Assembly (NCBI GenBank): GCA_027068415.1 | Contig: JAMOTD010000015.1 | Coordinates: forward strand, 62,001-126,000 | From: Desulfurobacteriaceae bacterium | GTDB taxonomy: Bacteria; Aquificota; Aquificia; Desulfurobacteriales; Desulfurobacteriaceae | Direction: 5' to 3' | Length of the DNA: 64,000 nt | Part shown: positions 10,362-55,034 of the stretch, one piece after another | How the letters are laid out: the number at the start of each line of letters is the position of its first letter | How positions within the stretch are numbered: the stretch's first letter is position 1 | Translations under genes and position numbers: made by a program | The notes under the pieces: model-generated | Told to the model about the DNA's origin: nothing | The model's input: the letters and a program-made list of their open reading frames with translations, nothing else | The model's database searches: none

Positions 10362-11804
10362 TTACTCCTCTTTACCCTTGTACTCCCACTTTCCCGTTGT
10401 AAGGTACTTGTGGATTGACTTTGCAGCAATCTGGGCGTGCTTAATCGCGGTTACGACGAGGTCTCCGCCGTTAACGACGTCTCCGCCTGCCCAGACTCCC
10501 TCTACATTTGTCCTGAACTCCTCGTCAACGGTTGAGAGGTTGTTCCACTTGTCAATCTTGAGGCCTTCAAGGTCTTTGTAGGCAACGGGGTTGTCGCCCT
10601 GACCTACGGCGAAGATTACGACGTCACAGAGGATTTCAAACTCGCTTCCCTCAATGGGCTCAACCTTTGGTCTTTTGCCCTCCTGAGGAATTAACTTCAT
10701 CTTGATGCACTTAATCGCCTTAACCCTGCCCTCCTCGTTTCCGATTACCTCAACGGGTTGAGTAAGCCAGTTCATCTTAACTCCTTCCTCTTCAAGCATT
10801 TCCCACTCGTCTTCCCTTGCAGAGGAGGAGTCCTTTGTTCTCCTGTAGACCACCTCAACTTCGTTTCCGAGCCTTACTGCAACGAGGGCGCAGTCAACTG
10901 CGGTAAAGCCTCCTCCTACTACGACTACCCTTTTGTTCTGGGGGAGCTCTATCTCCCTTTCGGGTGCAAGGAGCGGGTGAATCTCTCCGGTGTTAACCTT
11001 CATTAAAAAGCCGATTGCAGAGTAGCACCCTTTTAGGTCGGCCCCGGGAATGTTCATCTTCTTACCCCTTCCCGAACCTACGGCTATGAAGACCGCGTCA
11101 AACTCCTTTCTGATTTCCTCTGAGGTGATGTCCTCTCCAACGACAGTATTCGTCTTTACTTCAACTCCGAGGTTAAGAATCAAATTTATGTCCCAATCAA
11201 GGGCTTCCCTTGGGAGCCTCGGCTCGGGAATTCCGTACCTCATAACTCCGCCCAGGTAAGGCAGAGCTTCAAAAATCGTTACCCTGTGCCCCTTCTTTGC
11301 GAGGAAGTAGGCCGCCGAAAGGCCTGCAGGACCTCCTCCGATAATTGCGACCTTCTTCCCCGTATCCTCCTTCTCCTTCTCGTCAACCCACTGGACTCCG
11401 CACATCCTGACGTTGTCGGCTATAAACCTTTCAAGGCCTCCGATTGCAACCGACTCCCCGTCTCTCCTCCTTAAAAGAATACAGGTGCTCTCGCAGAGCC
11501 TCTCCTGTGGGCAGACCCTTCCACAAACAGAGCTGAAGGGGTTCCTCTCTCTGAGAATTTTGTAACCTTCCCTTACCCCCTCCTTCTGAATCGTCTCAAT
11601 CCAGTCGGGAATCCTGCTGTTTACCGGGCAGGAGTCCATACAGGTGGGGGTTTTACACAGCAGACACCTTAAAGACTCATCCTTTGCCGCCGTGTGGCCG
11701 TAACCTAAGACGTACTCGTTAAAGACCCTCTTCCTAACGTCCGGAGGGAGAACCGGCATTGGCATTCTATCCATCCACCTGTCAAGCTTCTTCTTCATTA
11801 CCAT
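10362..11804 (-). CDS. Glutamate synthase small-subunit-like NAD(P)H oxidoreductase (GltD/SudA/NfnB family)
   Basis: [70 protein letters not shown]; start may be 11798. Confidence 0.9.
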   Translation of the reverse strand: MVMKKKLDRWMDRMPMPVLPPDVRKRVFNEYVLGYGHTAAKDESLRCLLCKTPTCMDSCPVNSRIPDWIETIQKEGVREGYKILRERNPFSSVCGRVCPQERLCESTCILLRRRDGESVAIGGLERFIADNVRMCGVQWVDEKEKEDTGKKVAIIGGGPAGLSAAYFLAKKGHRVTIFEALPYLGGVMRYGIPEPRLPREALDWDINLILNLGVEVKTNTVVGEDITSEEIRKEFDAVFIAVGSGRGKKMNIPGADLKGCYSAIGFLMKVNTGEIHPLLAPEREIELPQNKRVVVVGGGFTAVDCALVAVRLGNEVEVVYRRTKDSSSAREDEWEMLEEEGVKMNWLTQPVEVIGNEEGRVKAIKCIKMKLIPQEGKRPKVEPIEGSEFEILCDVVIFAVGQGDNPVAYKDLEGLKIDKWNNLSTVDEEFRTNVEGVWAGGDVVNGGDLVVTAIKHAQIAAKSIHKYLTTGKWEYKGKEE

Positions 11805-11917: not shown

Positions 11918-14178
<2,261 letters not shown>

Positions 14179-15628: not shown

Positions 15629-15655
15629 TGCCCCCGAGCGTGGGGGCTTTTTTTA
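15629..15655 (+). terminator. Rho-independent terminator
   Basis: GCCCCC-GAGCGT-GGGGGC followed by T-rich tract. Confidence 0.9.
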
Positions 15656-16030
15656 TTGGTGTTCGTGCTCATCCTCGTTGGGTTCAAGGAGCTCTGTTAG
15701 TTTCCCCTCTTTAAAGAGCTCTACAGCCTCATCAAGGAACTTAACTCTTGTCGGAATCAGGTAAACTTTAATTCCCAGAGCGTTTCTTATCTTATCAAAG
15801 GCTCCCGGCCCCATCTCCTTAACTAAAACAGCTTCAACTCCTTTCTCTTTAAACATCTGAGCTATGTAAATTCCTCTCCCCCTCTGAAGGTGGAGTGCCG
15901 GGTTTTCAGCCAGTTCAACCTTCCCCGTTTCGGTGTCAACGATTGCGAAGAGGTTTGACTTTCCGAAGTGGGCGTTTACCAGTTTCCTGCCGTTTACTTC
16001 GGTCTCAAGGACGGGTACCGCTACTCTCAT
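15653..16030 (-). CDS. NifX/NifB-associated (dinitrogenase FeMo cofactor) family protein
   Basis: MRVAVPVLE...LVNAHFGKSNLFAIVDTETGKVE...VEAVLVKEMGPGAFDKI. Confidence 0.82.
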   Translation of the reverse strand: MRVAVPVLETEVNGRKLVNAHFGKSNLFAIVDTETGKVELAENPALHLQRGRGIYIAQMFKEKGVEAVLVKEMGPGAFDKIRNALGIKVYLIPTRVKFLDEAVELFKEGKLTELLEPNEDEHEHQ

Positions 16031-16092: not shown

Positions 16093-16106
16093 TTGATTTA
16101 GGTCAA
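16093..16106. promoter_or_regulatory. Candidate Crp/Fnr-family operator TTGATTTAGGTCAA
   Basis: TTGAT-N4-GTCAA; centre 41.5 bp upstream of the TSS predicted from TAAACT at 16129-16134. Confidence 0.55.
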
Positions 16107-16167
16107 GGATGTTCTGGCTACCTTTAGCTAAACTAAAAGTACAAATAGAAAATTTAAGGAGGTAAGA

Positions 16168-18114
16168 ATGTTTGGGTTCTTCAAAAAGGGCGGGGGCAAC
16201 GAAAAACACCCCGAAAGCTTGGACCTTTCAAAGGGTGTAGATATTAAAATGCCTTCATTCCACGAGAGCGTCAACTACATGTATAAGAAAGTTAAAGAGG
16301 CGGGCCTTTCAAACGTTGCAGACCGCTACAAGGCAATGGAGCAGGTAAGGTGTAAGTTCTGTAAGGAGGGAGTCTCCTGTCAGCTCTGTTCAATGGGTCC
16401 CTGCCGTATAACCTCAAAGACTCCCAGGGGGGTCTGCGGAATTGACGCCCACGGAATCGTGATGAGGAATATGCTCATAAAGGCCAACATGGGACTTGCG
16501 GCCTATACCTACCACTGTAGGGAAGCTGCCCTTACCCTCCTTGAGACTGCGAAGGGGAACACGGTTTACGAGATTAAAGACCCTTCAAAGATAGACGCCC
16601 TTGCTCAGGTTCTCGGAGTTGACACCTCCCTTCCCCTTGACAAGAAGGCCGAGGCTGTTGCAGAGGGAGTTTTAAGGAGCCTCTCCGAGAACAACACTTC
16701 CGTCTTCGTTGAAAAGCTTGCTCCCGAGAGCAGGAAAGAGGTCTTCAGGAAGCTCGGAATAATGCCCAAGGGGCCTATGAATGAACTTGTTGATTCCGTT
16801 GCCCGTTCAATGACCAACATTGACGGAGATTACATTACTCTTGCTCTTGCAGCACTGAGGAACGGCGTTGCCTCTGCTTTCGGAGCTCTCGTTCCCCTTG
16901 AGACGATTCAGGACGCCCTCTACGGAACTCCTACTCCTCACGAGTGTACCGTTGACTTCGGAGTTCTTGACCCCGACTACGTAAACATTCTCCCTAACGG
17001 CCACGAGCCCTTCGTCGGAATGGCACTTGTTAAGCTCGCTCAGGACGAGAAGTTCCAGCAGATGGCAAGGGAGGCCGGAGCGAAGGGTTTAAGGATTGTC
17101 GGCTCAATTGAGACCGGTCAGGAGATGATGGCACGCCTCAACTGTGATGAGGTCTTTGCCGGCCTTACCTCAAACTGGATTTCAATTGAGTACTTCCTCT
17201 CAACCGGTGCCGTTGATGCTTTTGTTATGGACATGAACTGCTCCCTTGCAAACCTTAAGGAGTACGCAGACAAGTACACCTTTAAGCTCATTGCCGTTTC
17301 AAACATAATAGGAGTCCCCGGCTCAATAAGGCTTGAGTACGAGCCCGGAAATGAAACAAAGGTTGCCGAGGAGATTATTAAGCTGGCCGTTGAGAACTTT
17401 AAAGAGAGGAGAAACAAGCAGAAGGAGGACGTCAGCAGGTTTAAGCAGAAGGCAATTGTCGGCTTCTCTGCTGAGGCGATTGTGAACGCCCTCGGCGGAA
17501 GTTTAGACCCCCTCCTTGAGGTAATTAAGAGCGGGGACATTAAGGGAGTTGTTGCCCTCGTTAACTGTACCTCCCTCGGAAACGGTCCTCAGGACAGCAT
17601 GACCGTTCAGATTGCCAAGGAGCTCATTAAGAGGGATATCCTCGTTATCGGTGCAGGTTGCGGAAACGCAGGTCTTCAGAAGGCGGGCCTTGAGACCCTT
17701 GAGGCGGTTGACAAGTACGCAGGTCCCAAGCTTGCGGGAGTCTGTAAGGCACTCGGAATTCCTCCCGTCCTCTCCTTCGGTACCTGTACCGACACCGGAA
17801 GGATTATTATGACCGTTGTTGCAATAGCCAACGCTCTCGGCGTTGACCCATCACAGCTTCCCGTTGCTGTTACTGCTCCCGAGTACATGGAGCAGAAGGC
17901 CGTTATTGACGGTTTCTCCGCCGTTGCAATGGGTCTTTACACCCACATCTCACCCGTTCCTCCGGTCACCGGTTCAGACAAGGTAGTTAAGCTTTTAACC
18001 GAAGAGGTTGAGGGGCTCACAGGCGGAAAGATTGCAGTAGGCGACGACCCCGTTCAGGCCGCCGACGGAATTGAAGAGCACATAGTGAAGAAGAGAGAAC
18101 TCCTCGGAATATAG
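16168..18114 (+). CDS. CooS-like anaerobic carbon monoxide dehydrogenase scaffold protein (atypical C-cluster motifs)
   Basis: CKFCKEGVSCQLCSMGPCRI N-terminal cluster motif, NILPNGHEP, GAGCGNAGLQKAG, EYMEQKAVIDGFSAVAMG; GSIETGQE where GICCTGNE is expected. Confidence 0.9.
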   Translation: MFGFFKKGGGNEKHPESLDLSKGVDIKMPSFHESVNYMYKKVKEAGLSNVADRYKAMEQVRCKFCKEGVSCQLCSMGPCRITSKTPRGVCGIDAHGIVMRNMLIKANMGLAAYTYHCREAALTLLETAKGNTVYEIKDPSKIDALAQVLGVDTSLPLDKKAEAVAEGVLRSLSENNTSVFVEKLAPESRKEVFRKLGIMPKGPMNELVDSVARSMTNIDGDYITLALAALRNGVASAFGALVPLETIQDALYGTPTPHECTVDFGVLDPDYVNILPNGHEPFVGMALVKLAQDEKFQQMAREAGAKGLRIVGSIETGQEMMARLNCDEVFAGLTSNWISIEYFLSTGAVDAFVMDMNCSLANLKEYADKYTFKLIAVSNIIGVPGSIRLEYEPGNETKVAEEIIKLAVENFKERRNKQKEDVSRFKQKAIVGFSAEAIVNALGGSLDPLLEVIKSGDIKGVVALVNCTSLGNGPQDSMTVQIAKELIKRDILVIGAGCGNAGLQKAGLETLEAVDKYAGPKLAGVCKALGIPPVLSFGTCTDTGRIIMTVVAIANALGVDPSQLPVAVTAPEYMEQKAVIDGFSAVAMGLYTHISPVPPVTGSDKVVKLLTEEVEGLTGGKIAVGDDPVQAADGIEEHIVKKRELLGI

Positions 18115-18148
18115 CCCGTTTCTTCATCTCCTCCCTCCCAGTGAGTGT

Positions 18149-18177
18149 ACCCCTCCCCCGGTGGGAGGGGTTTTTTA
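18149..18177 (+). terminator. Rho-independent terminator
   Basis: CCCCTCCC-CCGGT-GGGAGGGG-TTTTTT. Confidence 0.92.
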
Positions 18178-18200: not shown

Positions 18201-18521
18201 GTGTCTGCCGTAGAGAGGGAGAAAGAGACGATAAGGAGAATGGTTGAGATTTACTGCTGGAAGAGGCACGGCAGAAGAAAGGGGGAGCTCTGCTCCGAGT
18301 GCCAATCCCTCTTAAACTACGCCTATAGACGGCTTGAACTGTGCCCTTTCGGTGAGGAGAAGCCGACCTGTAAGAAGTGCCCCGTTCACTGCTACGCCCC
18401 CTCAATGAGGGAAAAGGTAAAGGAAGTTATGAGGTTCAGCGGCCCGCGCCTTTTAATCTACGACCCCTTTGGCTGGCTTTTCCACGAGCTTAAAGATAAG
18501 CTCGCCTTCTTAAGAAGATAG
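18201..18521 (+). CDS. Nitrous oxide-stimulated promoter (YgbA_NO) family protein
   Basis: Cys-rich MVEIYCWKRHGR...LCSECQSLLNYAYRRLELCPFGEEKPTCKKCPVHCYAPSMREKVKEVMRFSGPRLL; GTG at 18201 with AGGAGG; track start lies in the terminator. Confidence 0.8.
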   Translation: MSAVEREKETIRRMVEIYCWKRHGRRKGELCSECQSLLNYAYRRLELCPFGEEKPTCKKCPVHCYAPSMREKVKEVMRFSGPRLLIYDPFGWLFHELKDKLAFLRR

Positions 18522-19154
18522 CTCTCTTAGAGCTTGCGGGTTCTTTACCTTCACCTTATTTCTGCTCTTCTCAATAATCCCCAGCTCCTTTAACTTCCCG
18601 AGCATTCTTGAGACTGTCTCTTTCGTAAGCCCCAGCTCCATGGCCGCAATGTTTGTGCTAAACTCTACCTCATCTCTTCCCTCCTCAAATTTCCTTAGGA
18701 TGTAGGAGGCAATCTTTGAAAGGGCGCTCTTTAAGGAGAGGCTCTCTATTACGCTCGTCAGGTACATTAACCTCTGTGCCATAACAGACATAAACTTCAT
18801 TCCAATTTCCGGGTCTCTCTTCATAAGTTCAATGAATCCTTTTCTCGGGATTAAGACAATTTCCGACTCCTCTATTGCCTCTGCCCAGGCGGGGAAGTTC
18901 TTCCCGGTGAAGCTTGCTGCCTCTCCGAAGAGGGTAGGCTTATCAAAAATCCTTATTATCTGCTCTTTCCCTTTTGAGGTTTTATAGACTTTGACTTTTC
19001 CCCGTTTTAGTATGAAGAAGTACTCTCCCTTTTGAGATGGTGTAAAGATTATGTTGTTTTTGGAGTACCTCTTTACTACCGAGATTAAAGCAATCTCCTC
19101 AAGTTGTTTCTGATTGAGCTCCGAGAATAGGGGAATTTCCCTTAGGAATTCCAT
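18510..19154 (-). CDS. Crp/Fnr family transcriptional regulator
   Basis: cNMP-binding-like N-terminus and HTH (NIAAMELGLTKETVSRMLGKLKELGIIE); start may be 19175. Confidence 0.93.
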   Translation of the reverse strand: MEFLREIPLFSELNQKQLEEIALISVVKRYSKNNIIFTPSQKGEYFFILKRGKVKVYKTSKGKEQIIRIFDKPTLFGEAASFTGKNFPAWAEAIEESEIVLIPRKGFIELMKRDPEIGMKFMSVMAQRLMYLTSVIESLSLKSALSKIASYILRKFEEGRDEVEFSTNIAAMELGLTKETVSRMLGKLKELGIIEKSRNKVKVKNPQALRELSS

Positions 19155-19199
19155 TTTCCCTCCTTTTTCTTTCAATTCTCGGGGGTTTTGAGGGAATTT

Positions 19200-22277: not shown

Positions 22278-23555
22278 TTAGGATTTATAAACAATTTTAC
22301 CATTGTAAATTGTGAATTTCACTCTCCCCTGGAGTTTTCGGCCGAGAAAGGGGGTGTTCTTGCTCTTTGAGAGGATTAGCTCGGGAGTTAGGGTGTACTC
22401 CTCGTCGGGGTCAAAGAGGGTTATGTTTGCCCTTGCTCCCTCTTTTAGAGTTCCAATATCTCTTTTTCCGATTATCCTCGCCGGGTTGGTGCTCAGCTTT
22501 TCTACCATCTGGGAGAGGGTTAAGTAGCCATCCCTGACTAAGTTGAGGGAAAGGGGAAGGAGGGTCTGGAAGCCTATTATTCCGAAGGGAGCTCCGCAGA
22601 ACTCAACGCTCTTTTCATCCTCCGAGTGGGGAGCGTGGTCTGTTGCGATTGCGTCGGCAAGGCCGCTTTTTAAAGCTTCTTTGCAGGCCTTCAGGTCCTC
22701 CTCGTCTCTCAGGGGAGGGCACATCTTTGCATTCGTGTTAAAGTCCCTTACCGCCTCCTCTGTGAGGGTGAAGTGGTGGGGGGTAATCTCGCAAGTTGCT
22801 CTTACTCCGGCCCTTTTGGCCTCCTCAATCGCCTTTAGAGCTCCCTTCGTTGAGACGTGGCAGACGTGAATGTGGGCTCCGGTTAGCTTGGCGATTACCA
22901 AATCCCTGATTGTTCCGATTTCTTCGGCCTCTTTCGGCATTCCGGGTATTCCCAAGAGGCTTGAGAGGTAGCCCTCGTTCATGTGGCCGCCGGCCGAGAG
23001 GGTTTTGTCCTCCGAGTGGGTAAAGACCGGAATCCCGAGGCTTCTTGCGTAGTCCATTGCATTTCTTAGGACTTTGCTGTCTTTGGGGGTCTCTCCGTCG
23101 TCGGAGATTGCAACTATCCCAGCCTTTACCATTAAGCCTATCTCGGCGAGCTCTTCCCCTTTTAGGCCTTTTGTAATTGCCCCGACGGGAAAGACATCAC
23201 ACAGCCCTACCTCTTGCGCCCTCTCAATTATGTAGCGGGTTATTGAGGGGTTATCGTTTACCGGCTCGGTGTTTGCCATACAGCAGACGGAGGTTATCCC
23301 TCCTGCAACCGCCGCGTTTGAGCCGCTCTCAATGTCCTCTTTCCACTCCTGACCGGGCTCCCTAAGGTGAGAGTGGAGGTCTATGAAGCCGGGAGTTAAG
23401 ACGAGGCCGTCGGCGTCAATTACCTCAGAGGCTTCGGTTTTGTCTATCCTCTCGGCGAGCTTAACTACTCTGCCGTTTTCAATCAGAACTTCCCTCTTTC
23501 CCTCTACTTTCTGAGAGGGGTCAACTACAAGAGCTCCCCTTATTAAGAGCCTCAT
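22278..23555 (-). CDS. pyrC: Dihydroorotase
   Basis: PGFIDLHSHLREPGQEWKEDI, IATDHAPHSEDEK. Confidence 0.96.
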   Translation of the reverse strand: MRLLIRGALVVDPSQKVEGKREVLIENGRVVKLAERIDKTEASEVIDADGLVLTPGFIDLHSHLREPGQEWKEDIESGSNAAVAGGITSVCCMANTEPVNDNPSITRYIIERAQEVGLCDVFPVGAITKGLKGEELAEIGLMVKAGIVAISDDGETPKDSKVLRNAMDYARSLGIPVFTHSEDKTLSAGGHMNEGYLSSLLGIPGMPKEAEEIGTIRDLVIAKLTGAHIHVCHVSTKGALKAIEEAKRAGVRATCEITPHHFTLTEEAVRDFNTNAKMCPPLRDEEDLKACKEALKSGLADAIATDHAPHSEDEKSVEFCGAPFGIIGFQTLLPLSLNLVRDGYLTLSQMVEKLSTNPARIIGKRDIGTLKEGARANITLFDPDEEYTLTPELILSKSKNTPFLGRKLQGRVKFTIYNGKIVYKS

Positions 23556-23884
23556 TTAGCCTCTCCGCTCTTTTGTTTGTGGCACCTTGAACAGTTCTTG
23601 GGGTCCTTTGCGCTGAATGCTTTGGTTCCGTTGTGGCACGCCCCGCAGTAATTACCTTCCCAGATATCCTTCATCGTAAACTTATCTGCTCCGAACTGCT
23701 TCTTAAAGAGCTTGGGGTGGCAGTAGGAGCAGTGTTGCTTTTTTGCCTTTACGTGGTAAACGTGGCTGAAGACCACGTCTCCCTGTTTATTCTTAAAGAC
23801 CAAGTCCCTGTTTAAAACACCTCCCTTAAAGCAGCCTACAAGGAGGGCGGTGGCCAGAGCCCCCAAAAGGGCTACCCTTTTCAT
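23552..23884 (-). CDS. Triheme c7-like cytochrome (lipoprotein)
   Basis: Three CxxCH motifs (CSYCH, CGACH, CSRCH), LLVGC lipobox-like; ATG at 23884 preferred. Confidence 0.87.
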   Translation of the reverse strand: MKRVALLGALATALLVGCFKGGVLNRDLVFKNKQGDVVFSHVYHVKAKKQHCSYCHPKLFKKQFGADKFTMKDIWEGNYCGACHNGTKAFSAKDPKNCSRCHKQKSGEAK

Positions 23885-24816
23885 TGTATCTCCTCCTTCA
23901 GTTTTTCCAGCCTTCCGCACAGGAGGGAGAGAACTACCATTCTAACCGCAAGCCCCATCTCAACCTGCGGGAAGATTAAAGACCTATCCCCGTAGGCCAC
24001 CTCCCCTGTTATCTCAACCCCTCTGTTGAAGGGGCCTGGGTGGAGAATTACTGTTTCGGGGCGGAGCTCCTTTAACCTCTTCCTGTTAATTCCGAAGAGC
24101 TCCGCATACTCCCTTATTGAGGGGAAAGTCTTCTTTGCGTTTTGCCTTTCAAGTTGAATTCTCAGGAGGATAACGGCGTCGGAAACCTCCCTTACCTCCT
24201 CAAAGGAGTTTAGCTTCTTTACGCCTAAGGCTTCCGGAACTCTGGGCATCATCGGTGAGGGGCCGTAGATGAAGACCTCAGCTCCCAGCTCCTTTAAGAG
24301 AATTGCGTCCGAACGGGCGACCCTGCTGTTTGCTATGTCCCCTAAAATCGTTATCCTCTTACCCTCTAAACTTCCGAAGTGCTCGGTTAAAGTTGCACAG
24401 TCAAGGAGTGCCTGAGTGGGGTGCTGGTGCCTTCCGTCTCCAGCGTTAACCACTGCCGCCCTTACGAACTTCTGGGCAAAGTGGGGAGCTCCCTCACAGG
24501 GGTGCCTCAGAACTATTACGTCGGGGTGCATCATGTCAAGGTTCTTTACAGTATCTACTAAGCTCTCTCCCTTCTTTACAGAGCTGACGGAAGTTGAGAT
24601 GTTTATTACGTCTGCAGAGAGGAACTTCCCCGCCTTTTCAAAGGATGAGCGGGTTCTCGTTGAGGGCTCAAAGAAGAGGTTTACTACGCACTTACCCCTC
24701 AGGGCTGAGAACTTTTTCCTTCCCTCCCTGAGAGCTTTCCTTACCGAGAGTGCTGAGGAGTAAATCTCTTTAAAGAGCTCCCTTGTAATCTGCCCTGCCG
24801 AGAGGAGATTTTTCAT
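23881..24816 (-). CDS. pyrB: Aspartate carbamoyltransferase
   Basis: FFEPSTRTRSSFEKAGKFL, VINAGDGRHQHPTQALLD-like motif. Confidence 0.96.
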   Translation of the reverse strand: MKNLLSAGQITRELFKEIYSSALSVRKALREGRKKFSALRGKCVVNLFFEPSTRTRSSFEKAGKFLSADVINISTSVSSVKKGESLVDTVKNLDMMHPDVIVLRHPCEGAPHFAQKFVRAAVVNAGDGRHQHPTQALLDCATLTEHFGSLEGKRITILGDIANSRVARSDAILLKELGAEVFIYGPSPMMPRVPEALGVKKLNSFEEVREVSDAVILLRIQLERQNAKKTFPSIREYAELFGINRKRLKELRPETVILHPGPFNRGVEITGEVAYGDRSLIFPQVEMGLAVRMVVLSLLCGRLEKLKEEIQ

Positions 24817-54347: not shown

Positions 54348-54361
54348 TTGATAAAAGTCAA
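54348..54361. promoter_or_regulatory. Candidate Crp/Fnr-family operator TTGATAAAAGTCAA
   Basis: TTGAT-N4-GTCAA, same half-sites as 16093-16106; directly after the NtrC-like stop codon. Confidence 0.5.
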
Positions 54362-54434: not shown

Positions 54435-55034
54435 ATGGGTGAACTTAAGAGTTTAAGGAAGCAAGTTATCCTGTGTCAGGACGGCTCGCCCTTCGTTCCC
54501 CAGTACCCGGGGGGGATTAACGTTGAAAAGTGTACCGGCTGCGGTGAGTGTGTTGAAATCTGCCCCCAGAAGTGTATAGAGCTGAAAGAGGTTAAAGGTA
54601 AAAAAGTAGCAGTAATAACGAAACCGGAGCTTTGCATAGGCGACGGCTTCTGCAAAATCGTCTGTCCCGAGGACGCCTTCCTCTGAGGTATTAACTGCTC
54701 CTCCAGTTCGGAGGAAATTGAGATTAACGAAGAGGAGCTCTTAAGTGACGAAAACGGAAACTACGCTTACCTCACCCTCGGAGGAATACTCTACACCCCA
54801 ACCTACCTTGAGTTTATAGACCACAGCAGGTGTGAGAACTGTGGGAGATGTTTAAACCTCTGTGAAACCCGGGGGGTTGACGAGGAAGGGAGGGTTATCA
54901 CCGAATTTCCCGAAATCTGCAGCGGCTGCGGCCACTGCGGGAATATATGCCCGGCAAAGAGCATAGTTGCAAAGCCGATACCCCTTGAAGAGATGAAGAT
55001 AAGAGTTAAGAAGTATAAGGCTTCAAGGGGTTAG
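54435..55034 (+). CDS. Polyferredoxin with in-frame UGA (candidate selenocysteine at codon 84)
   Basis: ORF 54435-54683 continues in frame after UGA 54684-54686 to TAG 55032-55034 with further CENCGRCLNLC and CSGCGHCGNICP motifs; SECIS-like hairpin. Confidence 0.75.
54687..54721 (+). promoter_or_regulatory. SECIS-like stem-loop downstream of UGA
   Basis: UCCUCC (54699-54704) / GGAGGA (54710-54715), loop AGUUC with G at position 2; lower pairing UUAA (54691-54694) / UUGA (54718-54721). Confidence 0.6.

Follow-up and report, generated by a model that had tools for sequence, protein, structure and literature searches.

The window, a stretch of 64,000 nucleotides from a Desulfurobacteriaceae genome, carries at 16168..18114 (+) an intact open reading frame for a 648-amino-acid protein built on the scaffold of CO dehydrogenase (CODH). 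The frame starts with ATG and is preceded by AAGGAGG within the ribosome-binding site AAGGAGGTAAGA (16156..16167 (+), as read from the sequence). We refer to the gene as cooS-V and assign its product, in which Glu315 replaces the C-cluster residue Cys295, to structural group D-1. The genome is 1.6 Mb in size and 99.98% complete, and cooS-V is its sole CODH-family gene. An FNR/HcpR-type palindrome, TTGATTTAGGTCAA (16093..16106, no strand assigned), lies upstream, its first base 75 bp before the cooS-V ATG. Divergent from cooS-V, a conserved neighbor encodes a NifX-like protein (15653..16030 (-); profile match to PF02579, Nitro_FeMo-Co), which is related to the C-terminal domain of MrpORP. On the other side follow ygbA (PF11756, YgbA_NO; 18201..18521 (+), with a likely GTG start at 18201 rather than the ORF start at 18141), whose product has seven cysteines and three histidines that are invariant across the family, and a gene on the opposite strand for a CRP/FNR-family regulator (18510..19175 (-)). 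An intrinsic-terminator-like hairpin was recognized by inspection in the gap between cooS-V and ygbA (18150..18176 (+)), and most genomes of the family have a similar GC-rich hairpin there. Cotranscription of the two genes is thus uncertain, and ygbA may be expressed by read-through or from its own promoter.

In the family to which the window belongs, cooS-V was present in 22 of 22 genomes, with ygbA directly 3' of it in every case and the CRP/FNR gene adjoining ygbA likewise in all 22 (20 neighborhoods, the window, and G011). The locus was kept in five genomes with differing outer flanks (G005, G006, G007, G010, and G015), and genus g7 has the regulator gene in inverted orientation, reading with cooS-V, so that the linkage does not merely reflect shared chromosome order. 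A contamination or frameshift artefact was ruled out, the reading frame being intact and conserved across the 22 genomes. Genus g7 additionally has a cupin gene (Cupin_2, about 110 amino acids) that abuts or overlaps the start of cooS-V (L017:1498-3414 (-), and L019). In Salmonella and E. coli, the nitrosative-stress gene ygbA is a member of the NsrR regulon together with hcp (PMC2884951, PMC5320621), the gene for the hybrid-cluster protein HCP, and in D. desulfuricans adjoining cupin and hcp genes are both NO induced (PMC5701242); the link of the cupin to hcp is based on a broad fold. An earlier note on this DNA had pointed out that no cooC or cooF is adjacent, and none was found from 8 to 27 kb of the window, the part covered around the gene. 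No linkage of ygbA to cooS-V exists in the related f5 genomes, where ygbA lies elsewhere.

Several further genes were recorded in the surroundings. On the divergent side of cooS-V, G011 has a DUF1847 gene (L093:1826-2401) after the NifX-like gene. The window has, 2 to 6 kb upstream of the locus, genes for two GltA-like NADPH-dependent glutamate synthase/SudA proteins (10362-11804 and 12781-14178), one of which follows a SudB-like FAD/NAD subunit; most close relatives have a single copy there. A small secreted multihaem c-type cytochrome with three CxxCH motifs is encoded at 23552-23920, beside pyrC and pyrB.

Cluster ligands and CO chemistry

By profile, the window protein matches the catalytic subunit of CODH (TIGR01702, 791 bits versus a cut-off of 478) and the Pfam Prismane family (496 bits). 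It is not a member of the HCPs, given a score of 55.3 bits with TIGR01703, for which the curated cut-off is 360.8. The best relative of solved structure, over the full length, is CooS-V Ch from Carboxydothermus hydrogenoformans (PDB 7b7q; 683 bits and 53% identity), and the best true CODH in this PDB comparison reached 421 bits. A single-sequence AlphaFold model with a pLDDT of 38 was discarded. Residues were mapped by aligning the protein with 7b7q and the two canonical CODHs 6t7j and 6elq.

Glu315, encoded by the codon at 17110..17112 (+) as computed from the ATG at 16168, aligns exactly with the C-cluster residue Cys295. The other C-cluster ligands (Cys358, Cys467, Cys498, Cys540, and His279) are retained, leaving the five cysteines and one histidine that ligate the [Ni4Fe4S] C-cluster of Ni,Fe-CODHs incomplete by one cysteine. 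The catalytic trio of CODHs is incomplete as well, with Lys563 kept as Lys577, His93 replaced by Tyr113, and Ile567 replaced by Asp581. In window/7b7q notation, the active-site pairs are H279/H259, E315/E295, N357/N337, C358/C338, C467/C449, C498/C480, C540/C521, and E575/E556, the last placing Glu575 at the position of the hybrid-cluster residue Glu556; the B-cluster pairs are C71/C47, C74/C50, C79/C55, and C90/C68, and those of the D-cluster are C62/C38 and C65/C41. All motifs quoted in the earlier note were recovered, namely, GSIETGQE (E315), VMDMNC (N357/C358), VNCTSLGNG (C467), and NGH (H279), and its claim that one C-cluster cysteine had been lost to glutamate agrees with the alignment; Tyr113, Asp581, and Glu575 extend its list of departures. 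It had also described the N-terminal cluster motifs as conserved, which holds for the B-cluster cysteines but not for the D-cluster, where C62-x2-C65 is CooS-V-like and 6t7j and 6elq have a cysteine and a glycine. This CxxC D-cluster (Gly41 to Cys41) is a feature of group D-1 and also occurs in some canonical CODHs. With Ni-CODH structural group D-1 (PMC6344411), the protein shares the exchange of the first C-cluster cysteine for glutamate, the type III D-cluster, and the tyrosine at the position of the acid-base residue His93, and no difference from the group was found in those features.

At 18 of 18 diagnostic positions, the window protein, 7b7q, and 19 other Glu-type proteins are identical. 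The diagnostic set is invariant across these 21 proteins and clearly distinct from canonical CODHs, nine of which were aligned and have Cys, His, or Ile where the Glu-type proteins differ. All 13 aligned proteins of the window's family show the same departures, which are thus due neither to sequencing error nor to chance. Glu295 was described as unique to the C. hydrogenoformans CODH-V among the sequences compared in that study (PMC10502027), whereas its equivalent is common to all Glu-type proteins examined here.

In CooS-V Ch, the same residues bind a Ni-free Fe/S/O hybrid cluster, and the enzyme catalyzes neither CO oxidation nor CO2 reduction (PMC9311411). Considering 53% identity and the conservation of the ligands, the window protein probably carries such a cluster as well and would be devoid of Ni and of CO activity. 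For a family member, the opposite has been published: Theam_1337 of Thermovibrio ammonificans, a type V CODH that very probably belongs to the same ortholog group as the window gene, was read as reducing CO2 to CO, and its NiFeS residues were reported as present (PMC5441870). A working Ni CODH with CO/CO2 chemistry would be in line with the CODH scaffold, the TIGR01702 match, and expression of the gene in the T. ammonificans proteome. It is at odds with the exchange of Cys295, His93, and Ile567 in every aligned protein of the family, with the properties of CooS-V Ch, and with the C295E variant of CODH-II, which, as cited in two papers, was Ni deficient and had lost CO oxidation (PMC9311411, PMC6344411). 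The acetyl-CoA synthase CdhC (PF03598), which monofunctional CODHs do not need as a partner, was found in none of the 22 family genomes, and a canonical CODH was found in just two, G005 and G011, with CooF-like and NuoEF-like neighbors in both and a CooC-like neighbor in G011. We therefore regard Ni-dependent CO chemistry of the window protein as highly improbable.

The residue set of the family contradicts intact NiFeS ligands and, together with the absence of acetyl-CoA synthase, argues against the CO2 reduction to CO that was proposed for Theam_1337. With a C-cluster ligand missing and no acetyl-CoA synthase, the type V CODH should not be taken to indicate that a reductive acetyl-CoA pathway operates here, a point of consequence for a published argument on early carbon fixation. 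Within the Aquificae, the type V gene was reported to be confined to Desulfurobacteriaceae, and only one of the species treated had a second, canonical CODH (PMC5441870), a trait in which G005 resembles that species.

Phylogeny and distribution of Glu-type proteins

Our tree unites 21 Glu-type rows, 7b7q among them, in a single clade with a support of 100/99, apart from the Cys-type CODHs, and the window protein lies inside this CooS-V clade. The view of the earlier note, that the protein is of the CODH-V/hybrid-cluster type and not a CODH, is borne out by this placement, by the 683 versus 421 bits, and by the conservation of all hybrid-cluster ligands; its warning that automatic annotation as CO dehydrogenase could mislead was justified, as TIGR01702 matches a protein with Glu315 from the CooS-V clade. 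The window protein is an ortholog of C. hydrogenoformans CooS-V, to which it is homologous over the full length, and belongs to an already known enzyme type; its structural identity as a CooS-V-type enzyme is near certain. The newer part is the genomic context, that is, the locus of cooS-V, ygbA, and the CRP gene with its promoter, and not the type of enzyme.

Outside the window's family, Glu-type proteins were found in four Aquificota genomes of f5 (70 to 73% identity) and in G261 (61%), G267 (50%), and G317 (48%), the spread beyond Aquificota being judged from three genomes. Viral contigs scanned with the protein gave no match, and its plasmid matches were all canonical CODHs or HCPs. CooS-V genes were stated to be restricted to genomes with multiple CODH genes (PMC9311411), whereas 20 of the 22 family genomes carry cooS-V without another CODH. 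A true HCP was detected in 0/22 family genomes and in 0/7 of the other Glu-type genomes.

Within this unrooted sample, the Glu-type clade is sister to a clade of Cys-type proteins from other Aquificota (L023-L026, L112, and L117, from f3 and f4). The proteins of the latter keep all C-cluster cysteines and the histidine (GSLCTGQE) and have Asp at the position of Lys563, Asn at that of Glu556, Tyr at that of His93, and Asp at that of Ile567. They are annotated as CODHs and may represent another non-CODH.

Promoter palindrome, regulator, and loci outside the family

The palindrome before cooS-V is one of just five TTGAYN4RTCAA palindromes in the window genome. A palindrome of this form stands 64 to 100 bp before the first gene in all 20 intact promoters of the family; in 18 of them its first base is 71 to 100 bp before the cooS-V ATG, and in G017 and G019, both of g7, it is located 64 to 68 bp before the cupin gene instead. 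Genome-wide densities of 2 to 12 palindromes per genome give an expectation of about 0.0004 per 100 bp, to be read with the relatedness of the 20 genomes, which do not represent 20 independent events. The bases surrounding the palindrome have diverged among the family genomes. The palindrome of the window agrees with the HcpR-type site TTGAC-N4-GTCAA in 9 of 10 half-site bases, and several relatives have TTGACN4GTCAA exactly. In the f5 genomes, one of four loci has a perfect palindrome. A search for a wider regulon of perfect palindromes established no second conserved target, as many of the 18 secondary sites inspected in relatives fall within accC or another coding region.

Three cNMP-domain proteins are encoded in the window genome, and the regulator at the locus is the only one with a helix-turn-helix; the other two, of about 156 amino acids, lie beside hydrogenase or NADH-dehydrogenase-type genes. 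Its recognition helix, LGLTKETVSR in the window and LGLTxETVSR across the family, would fit TTGA half-sites by published specificity rules (PMC1274295), and from this context the protein is the candidate for binding the palindrome. The best PDB matches were 3fx3/3h3z, followed by DNR. Since the regulator has no cysteine and no histidine, sensing by an FNR-type Fe-S cluster or a CooA-type His-heme is excluded. This makes sensing the weakest point of the mechanism proposed below, the second being that CooS-V Ch gave no NO reduction above background. Its identity as the CO sensor CooA was rejected for want of a histidine and because the palindrome is not of the CooA type. A second palindrome of the window, TTGATAAAAGTCAA (54348-54361), is placed 74 bp upstream of a gene for an 83-amino-acid 2[4Fe-4S] ferredoxin (54435-54686), with the same geometry as at cooS-V, and this gene possibly encodes the electron donor of CooS-V.

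The Glu-type loci outside the family include two with an FrdX-like ferredoxin gene. In G261, TTGACCTAAGTCAA precedes this gene by 86 bp, and the ferredoxin gene is followed by a frame of 802 amino acids (L109:2499-4907) in which an HD domain (PF01966) is in frame with CooS-V, possibly encoding a fusion protein. In G267, the order is Rrf2 regulator, FrdX-like ferredoxin, CooS-V, and in G317 no informative neighbor was seen. A homolog of this ferredoxin occurs in Roseburia in the order hcp, Crp/Fnr, ferredoxin. GTAACN4GTTAC sites, corresponding to the HcpR2 motif (PMC1274295), were found before hcp in Roseburia and before the ferredoxin gene in Acetoanaerobium. In C. difficile, NO induces frdX-hcp through HcpR, and cells become NO sensitive when either gene is knocked down (PMC12915319). 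The open-access literature searched yielded no link of CooS-V to ygbA or FrdX.

Possible function and comparison with known systems

As the best explanation, to which we give a probability of about two in three, we propose that the window gene encodes a CooS-V-type, Ni-free hybrid-cluster enzyme that acts under stress control as an HCP-like reductase of small molecules of the NO/NH2OH type and replaces HCP. The homodimer would keep the CODH fold and the clusters of the electron relay, with C62/C65 binding a [2Fe-2S] D-cluster and C71/74/79/90 a [4Fe-4S] B-cluster. Glu315 in place of Cys295, along with N357 and E575, would lead to a Ni-free Fe/S/O hybrid cluster liganded by H279, E315, C358, C467, C498, C540, and E575, at which interconversion of CO and CO2 would be impossible. 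Low-potential electrons, probably supplied by ferredoxin as judged from context, would reduce the cluster and, by homology to CooS-V Ch, open the site, which could then take up a small oxidized nitrogen compound of the NO or hydroxylamine type and reduce it; the gene neighborhood would also be consistent with a related oxidant as the substrate. The CRP/FNR-family activator from the same locus would switch cooS-V on via the upstream palindrome, the cysteine-rich YgbA would be the partner of CooS-V, and the system as a whole may take the place of the absent HCP in the window's family.

The earlier note expected a non-Ni cluster with hydroxylamine-reductase-like rather than CO activity. The first part is supported by CooS-V Ch, which has neither Ni nor CO activity; the second is only partly so, since its hydroxylamine reduction is slow (kcat of 0.13 s-1, measured with methyl viologen, and kcat/KM of 20 M-1 s-1) and NO reduction by the purified enzyme was not above background (PMC9311411). 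With hydroxylamine as a substrate of CooS-V Ch, full-length NapA-like proteins in 13 of the 22 genomes (and fragments in at least two more), and a nitrite reduction route that is unresolved in T. ammonificans, the enzyme could be pictured as a hydroxylamine reductase of dissimilatory nitrate ammonification (nitrite to hydroxylamine to ammonium, reverse-HURM-like) and not as a stress enzyme. However, the four genomes of g7 have no NapA-like match and G005 has weak ones, yet the whole locus is kept in all of them; the low catalytic efficiency with hydroxylamine likewise speaks against this pathway, and ygbA, FrdX, and the HcpR-type features belong to stress regulons. An ammonification enzyme thus appears unlikely to us.

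The cluster of CooS-V Ch morphs reversibly with the redox state at low potentials, and a redox-sensing role was proposed for clade D, the clade of these proteins in a 2026 genome-context survey of 1,376 CODHs (PMC13056359). Desulfurobacteriaceae are strictly anaerobic (PMC5441870). The hybrid cluster might accordingly serve general redox or oxidative defence (O2 or peroxide) or redox sensing, instead of nitrogen-oxide reduction. The recurrent partners, namely, ygbA, FrdX, the cupin, and the FNR/HcpR-type site, are nevertheless the ones associated with hcp, which is known to be induced by NO/nitrite, and we consider a general redox function doubtful. The conserved neighbors and the promoter rather suggest that these vent bacteria use CooS-V against toxic nitrogen oxides and not for carbon fixation, and a role in nitrosative stress would fit this context.

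We are slightly inclined to take the idea one step further. Glu-type CooS-V may represent a second, CODH-derived way of doing what HCP does and may have taken over the position of hcp (FrdX or cupin partner, CRP/FNR-type box, and YgbA) as the nitrogen-oxide reductase of an HCP-less family of vent chemolithoautotrophs. Considering that HCP and CooS-V coexist in C. hydrogenoformans and that clade D and HCP often co-occur (PMC13056359), such a replacement is not general but lineage bound. The structure of CooS-V has been published and its role has not; the conserved locus, the palindrome, and the FrdX-linked loci provide a specific, testable one. The family is useful for such tests, as the lack of HCP in 22/22 genomes and of any other CODH in 20/22 leaves neither to confuse the result.

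The genome of the window differs from that of C. hydrogenoformans, which has four true CODHs and HCP besides CooS-V. It also departs from the picture of clade D, for which no clear operon pattern was seen (PMC13056359), in that the window's family has a fixed locus and no HCP. A parallel is provided by the HCP operons under HcpR, which have similar partner genes (FrdX, cupin, and a CRP/FNR regulator), a similar promoter motif, and a similar predicted cluster chemistry; CooS-V is distinguished from HCP by the CODH fold with a cluster at the dimer interface.
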